A stretch of DNA of 64,000 nt, taken from positions 1 to 64,000 of the forward strand of contig CACZCZ010000015.1 of the NCBI GenBank assembly GCA_902779845.1, given 5' to 3'. Under the pieces are notes generated by a model. That model did not search any database. It was given only the letters and a program-made list of their open reading frames with translations, and was not told the origin of the DNA. Source of the stretch: an uncultured Bacteroidales bacterium. Lineage in GTDB: Bacteria; Bacteroidota; Bacteroidia; Bacteroidales; Bacteroidaceae. The position numbers and the translations under genes were made by a program. Below are positions 10,901 to 37,646 of the stretch, one piece after another (the first letter of the stretch is position 1; each line of letters starts with the position of its first letter).

Positions 10901-10910
10901 CAACGCCCTG

Positions 10911-10984
10911 CGCTCCAGGATGGGCTTGAACCAACGACCCCCTGATTAACAGTCAGGTGCTCTAACCAACTGAGCTACTGAAGC
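10911..10984 (-). tRNA. tRNA-Asn (GTT), downstream copy
   Basis: Read leftwards, the 74-nt sequence folds as a tRNA: acceptor GCTTCAG with CTGGAGC, a D arm (GCTCAGTTGGTTAGAGC), anticodon loop CTGTTAA with GTT, and a T arm (GTTGG-TTCAAGC-CC). The discriminator base is G and CCA is not encoded. It is identical to the copy at 11004-11077. Confidence 0.95.
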
Positions 10985-11003
10985 AGTGCTTTTCCGAGTG
11001 GCG

Positions 11004-11077
11004 CGCTCCAGGATGGGCTTGAACCAACGACCCCCTGATTAACAGTCAGGTGCTCTAACCAACTGAGCTACTGAAGC
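11004..11077 (-). tRNA. tRNA-Asn (GTT), upstream copy
   Basis: A 74-nt tRNA-Asn identical to the copy 19 nt downstream, with the same acceptor stem and GTT anticodon. A minus-strand TACTTTTG element at 11121-11128 should start the two-tRNA transcript. Confidence 0.95.
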
Positions 11078-22803: not shown

Positions 22804-22825
22804 GTGGATCACCATGGTGATCCAC
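22804..22825. repeat. 22-bp perfect palindrome centred on CCATGG
   Basis: The 22 bases from 22804 to 22825 equal their own reverse complement (inner core GGATCACCATGGTGATCC). Its centre, CACCATGG, is also the start of each unit of the tandem array that begins 5 bp downstream. Confidence 0.9.
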
Positions 22826-22830
22826 TCAAT

Positions 22831-22962
22831 ACACCATGGAGAGATTGGCAACACACCATGGAGAGATTGGCAACACACCATGGAGCGATTGGCAACACAC
22901 CATGGAGCGATTGGTAACACACCATGGAGTGATTGGCAACACACCATGGAGCGATTGGTAAC
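22831..22962. repeat. Six tandem 22-bp repeats
   Basis: Six uninterrupted units of exactly 22 bp, each starting ACACCATGGAG and ending GATTGGYAAC, differ only at base 12 (A, C or T) and at one C/T near the end. There are no spacers, so this is not a CRISPR array. The 22-bp period puts every CCATGG on nearly the same face of the helix. Confidence 0.95.
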
Positions 22963-23190
22963 AGGGTATCGAGTGAACGGCGGTGGAGTAAGTAGAGAAG
23001 ATATTTTATTTCACTTATTGATAGCCTTTTTTCACTAAATATGCCATAATTACCTGTACAATAATTAGGTAATCTTATGGAAAATGCAGTTTTAATGCTG
23101 TATTTATAGCTTAAATAGGCAAAAATAGGCTGATAATAGGCCGAATTACTTGCATTTCTGCGCATAAATTCGATTTATTTCTGCATTTAT

Positions 23191-23253
23191 GGTGTTTTTC
23201 TTGTAATTATTGGTGTTTTTCTTGTAATTATTGGTGTTTTTCTTCCTATTATG
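23191..23253. repeat. 21-bp tandem repeat, nearly three copies
   Basis: Two identical 21-bp units (23191-23211 and 23212-23232, GGTGTTTTTCTTG plus TAATTATT) are followed by a diverged third. The period is two helical turns. The region lies about 140-200 bp upstream of the argR promoter. Confidence 0.9.
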
Positions 23254-23370
23254 ATGTCTATTTCTTCAACTTTTGGTGCTATTATTTCCCAACACCAATG
23301 CTGCCGAAGGGCAGGATATGCAGAAAATGCAATGAATATGCAAAATATTCGGCACAATATGTAGTCCGTT

Positions 23371-35598: not shown

Positions 35599-36381
35599 AT
35601 GTATAAAAGAATAGCCATCAAGGTGGGCAGCAATGTGCTTACGCGGAAAGACGGGACCCTTGACATCACCCGTATGTCGGCGCTTGTAGATCAGTTGGCA
35701 GAGTTGCGTCGCTCAGGCATCGAGGTTATCCTTGTTTCCTCTGGCGCGGTAGCCAGTGGGCGCAGTGAGTTGCGTCTGCCTGCCGATGAGACGGCGCAGA
35801 TGGACAGCGTGGAACAGCGACAACTCTTCTCTGCCGTGGGACAGGCCAAGCTCATGGGACGCTACGTGGAACTCTTCCGTGACCACGGCATCCATGTGGG
35901 GCAGATTCTCACGATGAAGGAAAACTTCGCTCCAGGTGAGCAGTACGACAACCAGCGCCAGTGCATGACAGCCATGCTGGCACACGGCGTGCTACCCATC
36001 GTCAATGAAAACGATACTGTATGCGTGACGGAGTTGATGTTCACCGACAACGATGAGCTCAGCGGCCTTGTGGCACAGATGATGGACTGCCAGGCGCTGG
36101 TCATCTTGTCCAATATCGACGGCATCTACACAGGTGCTCCCGATAATCCCCAATCGCAATTGATACGGGAAGTGCCTCATGGCACTGACCTCAGCCAATA
36201 CCTGCAACCCAGCCGCTCGTCAGCCGGACGTGGCGGCATGCAAAGCAAATACCATACAGCACAGCTCGTGGCCGATGCTGGCATTCATGTCTATATTGCT
36301 AACGGCAAACGCGAGCATATCCTCTGCGATGTGCTACAACACCCAGAACAAGTGCCTTTCACCCATTTCTGCCCACAATGA
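35599..36381 (+). CDS. proB: Glutamate 5-kinase, short form without PUA domain
   Basis: A 260-residue amino acid kinase domain with KRIAIKVGSNVLTRKDG at the start and the glutamate-binding INENDTVCVTELMFTDNDELSG motif. It phosphorylates glutamate, the first proline step. The C-terminal PUA domain of enterobacterial ProB is missing, as in several Bacteroidetes. Overlaps proA by 4 nt. Confidence 0.94.
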   Translation: MYKRIAIKVGSNVLTRKDGTLDITRMSALVDQLAELRRSGIEVILVSSGAVASGRSELRLPADETAQMDSVEQRQLFSAVGQAKLMGRYVELFRDHGIHVGQILTMKENFAPGEQYDNQRQCMTAMLAHGVLPIVNENDTVCVTELMFTDNDELSGLVAQMMDCQALVILSNIDGIYTGAPDNPQSQLIREVPHGTDLSQYLQPSRSSAGRGGMQSKYHTAQLVADAGIHVYIANGKREHILCDVLQHPEQVPFTHFCPQ

Positions 36382-37646
36382 ATACAGATTTTTCACAGGT
36401 GCGTGCAGCCAGCAAGCGCATAGCGCAACTCACTGATGAAGAGCGCAGCGCTGTCCTCTGTGAGCTGGCTGATATGACCGAGGCTCGTATGGCCGACCTC
36501 TTGCAGGCCAACGCCCAAGACTTGCAGCGGATGGATCCTGCCAATCCCAACTACGACCGTCTACAACTCACAGAAGCACGTCTGCGCGACATCGCCGCAG
36601 ACCTGCGCAAAGTGGCCTCGCTGCCCTCGCCGCTCGGCCGTGAGCTTAAGCACAGCATCCTCCCCAACGGCCTTGAGCTGACGCGCGTGAGTGTGCCCTT
36701 TGGCGTCATAGGCATCATCTTCGAGGCACGTCCCAACGTCTGCTTCGACTGCTTCGCACTTTGTCTGAAGGCTGGCAGTGCCTGCATCCTCAAAGGTGGC
36801 AGCGATGCCAAGGACAGCTGCACAGCTATCATATCCCTGATTCACGAGGCTTTGCGCCGTCACAACCTGTCTGCTGAGAGCGCCCTGCTGCTCACCAGCC
36901 ACGAGGACACCGACCGCCTGCTCGCTGCTCGCGGACAGGTGGATCTCATCATTCCGCGCGGCAGCAACCGCCTCATCAACTACGTTCGCGACAATGCCCG
37001 TGTGCCTGTCATCGAGACCGGTGCCGGCGTCGTGCACTGCTATGTCGATCGCGCGGCCGACCTCGAAAAGGCCATCGCCATCGTGGTGAACGCCAAGACG
37101 CGCCGCGTCAGCGTCTGCAACGCCCTCGACTGTCTCATCATCCATCGTGACCGTCTCGCCGATCTGCCCGCTCTCTTCGAGCCACTCCTCAGCAAGGGTG
37201 TGACGATAGAGCTTGATGAAAAGGTTTTTGCCACCAGTGGCAAAACCATTTGCCACCAGTGGCAAAACCATTTGCCACCAGTGGCAAATCGCATCATCCC
37301 CGCAACCGAAACATCTTACGGCACGGAGTTCCTGTCCCTGCGTATGGCCGTGAAGGTCGTCGATAGCTTGGACGAAGCCCTTGAGCACATTGCCCGCTAT
37401 GGCTCGGGTCACAGCGAGAGCATCGTCACCGAGGACCCCGCAGCCGCCCAGCGCTTCCTCAACGAGGTCGATGCCGCCTGTGTCTATCACAATGCCCCCA
37501 CCAGCTTCACCGATGGCGGTCAGTTCGGCCTTGGCGCAGAGATTGGCATCAGCACACAGAAACTGCACGCCCGCGGCCCCATGGCCCTCGAAGAAATCAC
37601 CACGTATAAGTGGCTGATTCGAGGCAACGGGCAGACGCGCCCATAA
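36378..37646 (+). CDS. proA: Gamma-glutamyl phosphate reductase with repeat-encoded insertion
   Basis: A 422-residue ProA of the aldehyde dehydrogenase fold, with FGVIGIIFEARPNVCFDC, the IPRGSNRLINYVRDN stretch and the catalytic cysteine in RRVSVCNALDCLIIH at about residue 247. It reduces glutamyl phosphate to the semialdehyde. Residues about 283-304 (from FATSGKT to LPPVAN) are encoded by three 22-bp-period palindromic repeats, in a variable loop where relatives have an ordinary linker. The frame stays open and the downstream ATETSYGTEFLSLRMAVKVVD block is intact, so the enzyme is probably functional. Confidence 0.94.
   Translation: MNTDFSQVRAASKRIAQLTDEERSAVLCELADMTEARMADLLQANAQDLQRMDPANPNYDRLQLTEARLRDIAADLRKVASLPSPLGRELKHSILPNGLELTRVSVPFGVIGIIFEARPNVCFDCFALCLKAGSACILKGGSDAKDSCTAIISLIHEALRRHNLSAESALLLTSHEDTDRLLAARGQVDLIIPRGSNRLINYVRDNARVPVIETGAGVVHCYVDRAADLEKAIAIVVNAKTRRVSVCNALDCLIIHRDRLADLPALFEPLLSKGVTIELDEKVFATSGKTICHQWQNHLPPVANRIIPATETSYGTEFLSLRMAVKVVDSLDEALEHIARYGSGHSESIVTEDPAAAQRFLNEVDAACVYHNAPTSFTDGGQFGLGAEIGISTQKLHARGPMALEEITTYKWLIRGNGQTRP
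37227..37288. repeat. Three palindromic repeats with 22-bp period inside proA
   Basis: TTTGCCACCAGTGGCAAA (8-bp arms, 2-bp centre) occurs three times, at 37227, 37249 and 37271, joined by ACCA. The array lies inside the proA coding frame without breaking it. Confidence 0.95.

Follow-up and report, generated by a model that had tools for sequence, protein, structure and literature searches.

A 22-bp palindromic repeat array in frame in proA of a Bacteroidales bacterium and its symmetric arm differences among related species

The proA gene and its array

The window analysed here is a stretch of 64,000 nucleotides from an uncultured Bacteroidales bacterium (genome G000 in the following), and its proA gene is host to an array of short palindromes. 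The features at this locus, with the basis of each in brackets, are:

36378 to 37646, + strand: proA, glutamate-5-semialdehyde dehydrogenase, 422 aa, host of the array (open frame; NCBIfam; sole full-length match in the genome)
37227 to 37244, + strand: unit 1, palindrome TTTGCCAC-CA-GTGGCAAA (sequence)
37245 to 37248, + strand: spacer ACCA between units 1 and 2 (sequence)
37249 to 37266, + strand: unit 2, palindrome identical to unit 1, in another reading frame (sequence)
37267 to 37270, + strand: spacer ACCA between units 2 and 3 (sequence)
37271 to 37288, + strand: unit 3, palindrome identical to unit 1, in the third reading frame (sequence)

As described in the initial annotation, three in-frame copies at 22-bp spacing lie in an enzyme gene with intact catalytic parts. 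The copies of TTTGCCACCAGTGGCAAA (37227-37288, 62 bp) are perfect, each with 8-bp arms and a 2-bp centre, and TRF reports period 22, 2.8 copies and 100% match. The proA frame is open and its product matches NCBIfam NF001221 (glutamate-5-semialdehyde dehydrogenase) with 522.6 bits (cut-off 289), and the SVCN motif, the cysteine of which we take to be the catalytic one, is invariant across 14 ProA sequences. Searching the genome with ProA gave one full-length match and two further short ones, both on the repeat. The two genes before proA look by sight like proC and proB, and proA itself serves proline synthesis in this gut bacterium. In the AlphaFold model of ProA (mean pLDDT 77.6) the block means of residues 281-310 are 53-74.

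A period of 22 cannot be divided by 3, and the three units therefore use all three reading frames (FATSGK, CHQWQ and LPPVA in G000); among arrays of one to six units only those of three or six keep the frame. A frame check predicts a stop in the array if all three units were of the TTTCTCAC or TTTATCAC type. The three units of G000 do not differ from one another, nor do the two spacers, and to judge from the letters they look as after a recent tandem duplication. Two other explanations were rejected: terminator-like matches over the array sit antisense and inside the gene, and the five matches to known RNA families over this stretch at E <=1 are all far under the gathering score.

Arrays in ProA and in a second protein of congeners

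The genus set comprised 139 genomes, 107 of which had a ProA match, and the loop was read in 52 that were picked mostly by similarity (18 + 40, 6 in both; G084 was not readable by pattern); the key genomes are incomplete and probably metagenome assemblies. The array is present at the same codons in seven of the 52 congeners (G000, G107, G143, G149, G131, G120 and G147). Array-free are G016 and G018 (81% identical) and G015 (77%), where an unrelated segment makes up a loop that is 11-12 residues shorter than that of G000, such that the array replaces approximately 10-11 other codons. ProA of G103 and G153 is without the loop and the G000 protein is 33 residues longer there, and in the remaining congeners the loop is either absent or of unrelated sequence. 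Alignment with proA of relatives hence supports the earlier view that a repeat array was put into an intact enzyme gene; the estimate that it adds about 20 residues was too simple, in that the loop is indeed longer, by 11-12 or by 33 residues depending on the relative. The refuting outcome, the same residues being conserved in remote ProA proteins, did not turn up: relatives have other residues or no loop, and a conserved ProA feature was rejected on the same ground.

An unlike loop repeat, CCCTCCCT..AGGGAGGG-like, is present in G016, G018, G048, G065, G088 and G154, while the loop of G061 has a CCCCCCACGGGGGG repeat and that of G020 a GGTCAATG tandem repeat. Judged from these unlike repeats at one place, the ProA loop is a hot spot for repeats. 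The CCCTCCCT..AGGGAGGG-like palindrome reads, in frame, IAPSLTGRAGG at the array's place in loci L010, L011, L176, L179, L181 and L193, and at a second ProA site in-frame GC-rich insertions occur in G013 (L029/L036) and G020 (L032/L035), namely SPFKGELEG and SLPLREGWGG.

Ready-made three-unit arrays might thus have been inserted repeatedly and independently at this hot spot, without any rewriting in place, and in line with this the array-free species are interspersed with array species on the tree. We nevertheless regard such repeated insertion as improbable: the seven proA arrays always have three units 22 bp apart, are of equal length, align gap-free and stand in the same codon phase, G149 and G131 have unit 1, centres and spacers in common, and G107 and G143 have common arms. 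The tree, on which G000 pairs with G107 (support 90/81), needs three changes of the array label and therefore implies either a single gain followed by losses or multiple gains.

The 7-bp arms of the proA arrays are TTTGCCAC in G000, GTTCCAC in G120 and GTCCCAT in G107 and G143; those of G149 and G131 are mixed (TTTGCCAT, TTTCTCAC, TTTCCCAC and TGTCCCAC), and the arms of G147 are of the TTTACCG and TTTTCCG types and contain more mismatches. Over the 24 pairs and seven sequences 94.0% of the cells are paired, compared with 79.7% after shuffling and 37-52% with slid partners; the covariation score is 0.510 vs 0.223 for shuffled arrays (0 of 500 shuffles as high), and 26 cells are changed on two sides vs 9.8 in the shuffles. 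As the shuffles ignore relatedness among the seven sequences, the three-hairpin mask was also slid along the ungapped proA alignment, giving 102 concordant two-sided changes at the array and at most 10 at offsets >66 nt away. We show in this way that the proA arms of seven species differ in a coordinated, two-sided manner, which, together with the array being common to the seven, is beyond what the initial annotation had seen.

Pairwise comparisons give the scale of these differences. Between G000 and G107, 48/672 sites differ outside the array and 20/48 arm sites, with nine pairs changed on both sides; given the grouping of these two, the arms switched in the G000 line or the shared state is an older one. 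The corresponding numbers are 53/672 and 1/48 for G107 vs G143, and 48/672 and 5/48 for G149 vs G131, where one unit 3 pair has changed on both sides (T-A to G-C). As far as such comparisons go, this suggests that something keeps rewriting the units while the protein stays unbroken.

Three units also stand in frame in a gene for a PD40 repeat protein, at a single position and in three species, with GTCCCAT arms in G107 and G143 and TTTACCAC-like arms in G131; the other 15 of 18 aligned sequences, including those of G000, G149 and G061, are without this array. Here five pairs differ on both sides vs 1.7 in shuffled arrays, and 2 of 500 shuffles reach this number. The PD40 gene of G131 has arms of another type than proA of the same genome. 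A 43-nt stretch including a spacer occurs unchanged in proA of G107 and, in a different frame, in the PD40 gene of G143, indicating that the DNA was copied or kept irrespective of the peptide. Between G107 and G143 none of the 42 positions in 7-bp arms differ in proA, which alone is weak since approximately three differences are expected, and none of 42 in the PD40 gene, a number that is biased as both copies were found by the exact arm pattern. The centres of these arrays differ at 3/12 positions and the spacers at 5/24, and outside the array the PD40 gene differs at 361/1541 sites (for proA see above). With their arms constant and their centres free to vary, the units resemble a recognised dyad. 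Other in-frame repeats were seen in the PD40 gene loop, CTTTCAA in G048 (L293) and a AATGAGCCC-like one in G120 (L298).

The 22-bp lattice between genes

The lattice extends beyond proA. In 464 kb of G000, palindrome centres lie 22 bp apart 23 times, the background mean being 1.4 per distance (21 bp: 2; 23 bp: 2), and in 358 kb of six array-bearing relatives 19 times vs 1.1, while 79 named loci outside the close clade gave no signal (5 vs 2.7). The test counts palindromes with 6 of 7 pairs, a stricter threshold having given too few pairs. For unlike palindromes 22 bp apart the counts are weak, both in G000 (5; background mean 1.3, largest 5) and in the clade (3; 1.1, largest 6), and the claim that unlike units stand in the lattice therefore draws on the profile outward from TTT-type array edges. 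There palindromicity peaks at 22, 44, 66, 88 and 110 bp (3.84, 3.44, 3.13, 2.87 and 2.47) over a mean of 1.76 across distances (sd 0.34), and the units past the edge are no longer of the TTT type.

One further array lies within the window:

22806 to 22963, no strand assigned: intergenic array upstream of argR, the gene name being that of the initial annotation (TRF period 22; seven CCATGG centres)

Its CCATGG centres are exactly 22 bp apart (22815, 22837, 22859, 22881, 22903, 22925 and 22947) and its first unit is a perfect ATCACCATGGTGAT. That it might form one family with the proA array holds for the lattice, which is of the same 22-bp kind, but not for the arms, which are unlike those of proA. 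Directly past it, at 23175-23278, is a 21-bp tandem array of TGGTGTTTTTCTTGTAATTAT with 2.6 copies, and elsewhere in the window two tandem tRNA-Asn genes (gtt) lie in a perfect 93-bp duplication (10910-11077). The repeat load of the 464 kb of G000 beside the 22-bp arrays includes TRF rows of period 7 (62), period 8 (39) and period 15 (38). Congener G016 also carries 22-bp arrays, built of unlike units (17 TRF rows over 200 kb), and has few palindrome pairs at 22 bp (3 vs 0.5).

The initial annotation had proposed searching the genome for the 18-bp palindrome, and it is dispersed: exact matches number 18 over the 2.92 Mb of the genome (control 0) and rise to 21 if any centre is allowed. Three of the 18 are those in proA, and the other 15 are outside genes by our own gene calls; this recurrence is not due to chance. 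Among 40 relatives TTTGCCACYRGTGGCAAA was found in one, at a single site in G003. The TTT type, TTTNNCAYNNRTGNNAAA, has 94 sites in G000 (control 0), and the middle arm letters of the 50 listed are CT (25), GC (16), CT/AT mixed (7), AT (1) and CC/CT (1), such that the listed arms form a few discrete types; CT, the commonest of these 50 (25/50), would bring TGA into the proA array. In the pieces examined there are 31 distinct TTT-type arrays, with one (12), two (3), three (13) or four (3) units, and of the 19 intergenic arrays with more than one unit most (13) have three.

In 11 genomes searched, GTCCCAT has 16 sites in G107, nine in G143, and one each in G149 and G131; TTTGCCAC has 21 in G000, 15 in G107, two each in G149 and G120, and one in G131; and GTTCCAC has 15 in G000, seven in G120, six in G131, four in G149, two in G107 and one in G061, the others having none in each case. 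According to these counts the proA arm types of G000, G107, G143 and G120 recur elsewhere in their own genomes. This bears on the possibility that the arrays are kept by mutation only, where slippage homogenises adjacent units and hairpin-templated correction, that is quasi-palindrome mutation, keeps the symmetry, with no factor involved and the dyad having no role. The identity of units and spacers in G000, the mixed and imperfect units of G149 and G131 with their one T-A to G-C change in unit 3, and a ProA loop that tolerates any sequence are all consistent with it. Local mutation does not, however, explain arm types common to many distant sites of the same genome or a 43-nt stretch with spacer common to two genes, and the few discrete types among the listed G000 arms also argue against it; we therefore consider mutational upkeep unlikely. 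As a side observation, some intergenic arrays are composite (L003, L006, L008, L043, L044, L047 and L051), frequently in the order AAGAGC/AAGACC units, one TTTGCCAC unit and TTTCTCAC units.

Gene context was read for 63 distinct arrays, with gene calls from our own codon-usage heuristic; arrays <60 bp from a locus end or with the same 20-nt flanks were left out, and orthologous copies of G107 and G143 were counted once. Both neighbours were called for 46, of which 27 lie between co-directional, 16 between convergent and three between divergent genes, while among the other 17 there are 14 with an uncalled neighbour and three inside genes. The ratio of 16 convergent to 3 divergent, set against an expected convergent share by length of 0.34, gives p ~1e-5, the arrays of related genomes not being independent; a small sample not chosen by arm pattern had one convergent and one divergent among seven intergenic arrays.

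Such a preference for 3' ends in the pooled arrays would fit hairpins that act in the mRNA (stability, pausing), with compensatory changes keeping the stems, as would the mismatches in the proA units, which on the sense strand are G.T in 13 cases vs A.C in three (seven other), and the RNA folds of the seven arrays, with z from -1.5 to -11.6. Against this, wobble pairs are not in excess on the sense strand of arrays that lie between co-directional genes (G.T 18 vs A.C 24), the small sample, which was taken without looking for arrays, has no such preference with its one convergent and one divergent case, and structure alone does not explain arm letters that are common across the genome. A role in RNA structure is thus in our view very improbable, and an RNA hairpin as the sole reason was rejected, as the excess of proA is missing from the intergenic arrays.

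Known systems and a possible mechanism

Rickettsia palindromic elements are palindromic DNA in frame in housekeeping genes, where the protein tolerates it, and RPE-1 is a single element of >100 bp in Rickettsiales. The likeness to these lies in an in-frame palindrome in a functional gene, here proA in seven species and the PD40 gene in three. The arrays differ from them in having 22-bp units in threes (62 bp in total), changing arms and a Bacteroidales host, and the resemblance drawn in the initial annotation did not translate into membership. These elements are also mentioned in PMC3733652, which describes REPs as mostly intergenic, with convergent and co-directional spacers favoured and few between divergent genes; some intragenic REPs are in frame and add 20-30 residues, and in two Xanthomonas species roughly the same position of recB is occupied by different REPs. 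Our palindromes resemble these REPs in being short, dispersed, mostly intergenic and in some cases in frame, and they share with REPs, as 20-40 bp palindromic repeats, the presence in many dispersed copies (94 TTT-type sites, 18 of the 18-mer). Unlike REPs, neither GTAG nor CGTC occurs in the 22-bp unit, its complement or the junctions, and compared with PMC3733652 the strict head-to-tail 22-bp lattice and the orthologous array of seven species with symmetric arm switching are different.

BrickBuilt of Porphyromonas gingivalis (PMC4596501) is a minisatellite of 23-nt repeats that is embedded in a MITE, with a leader and a tail, and all of its copies are intergenic. It shares with the arrays a Bacteroidales host, a similar period and many sites, and its unit number varies; the proA array is different in its 22-bp period, its intragenic position and the proA sequence on either side, and the word palindrome is absent from the BrickBuilt text. 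In-frame palindromic repeats as such are thus already known (Rickettsia elements, intragenic REPs). Among the records listed in searches of the open-access literature, none described this array, a 22-bp lattice of dyads or arms that switch symmetrically, and both the lattice and the symmetric switching in place look new.

The reading we propose, and to which we give about an even chance, is that a REP-like 22-bp palindrome family entered the ProA loop, where its units turn over and the arms are held by recognition at the DNA level. Each unit of this family would consist of a palindrome of 18 bp, the central 2 bp of which are free to vary, and a spacer of 4 bp, and the family would be dispersed in the genus mainly between genes. 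In an ancestor an array may have entered the length-tolerant ProA loop, in which the reading frame would act as a filter such that only three (or six) units, and only arms that are stop-free in the frame used, can stay. Within a lineage, units would turn over by tandem duplication or slippage and by copying from other genomic arrays, and this turnover would replace the arm type and leave number, spacing and symmetry. The arms are probably held by a putative sequence-specific factor, transposase-like or DNA-binding, that reads the DNA dyad, and not by the protein sequence. Several points speak against this proposal: three units need not reflect the frame, as most multi-unit arrays between genes have three as well; with several arm types in one genome a single recogniser is not enough; proA and the PD40 gene of G131 have unlike arms; and the tree needs three changes of the array label.

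More tentatively, a genome-wide 22-bp dyad lattice might have arms that are read by a putative factor of changing specificity, where shifts in specificity would rewrite arrays in place. If so, the rewriting covers both arms and all units, even in the gene of a metabolic enzyme, where the genetic code would do no more than filter the outcome by requiring three units and no stops. The usual view of small palindromic repeats is that of frozen insertions. The orthologous arrays of proA and the PD40 gene preserve several arm types, all with the same symmetry, spacing and number of units. The upkeep of REP-like palindromes, for which selfish copying, protein binding, hairpin-driven mutation and RNA structure are candidate causes, is thereby testable at fixed places across species, and the arrays also illustrate a route for repeat DNA to supply enzymes with new loop sequence while the frame is kept.

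For the factor that would recognise the arms, a RAYT-like protein is a weak candidate. According to PMC6006769, each RAYT/TnpAREP is tied to its own REP type, and subclass 2.6, from Bacteroidetes, is flanked by atypical structures; the likeness to such systems is that a RAYT-like ORF is present in G000, its link to the palindromes being only a candidate one. This ORF (L059 1261-2565, G000:C7) encodes 434 aa with DHVH and scores 33.6 bits with the NCBIfam REP-associated tyrosine transposase (under the cut-off of 80) and 22.8-24.1 bits with Pfam Y1_Tnp (cut-off 23). A PF01797 match is present in 14 of 21 genomes, over the cut-off in nine. The same long ORF is found in G107 and G131, also in G103 and G116, which are without the proA array, and no match was found in the array bearer G120, such that the presence of the ORF does not coincide with that of the arrays. 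The copy in G107 is preceded by TTTGCCAC units at a distance of 320-430 bp. Finally, the RAYT-like HUH protein of G000 has in-frame tandem repeats of its own (AEVHGGERDA, GARGDEG), the numbers of which differ in relatives.
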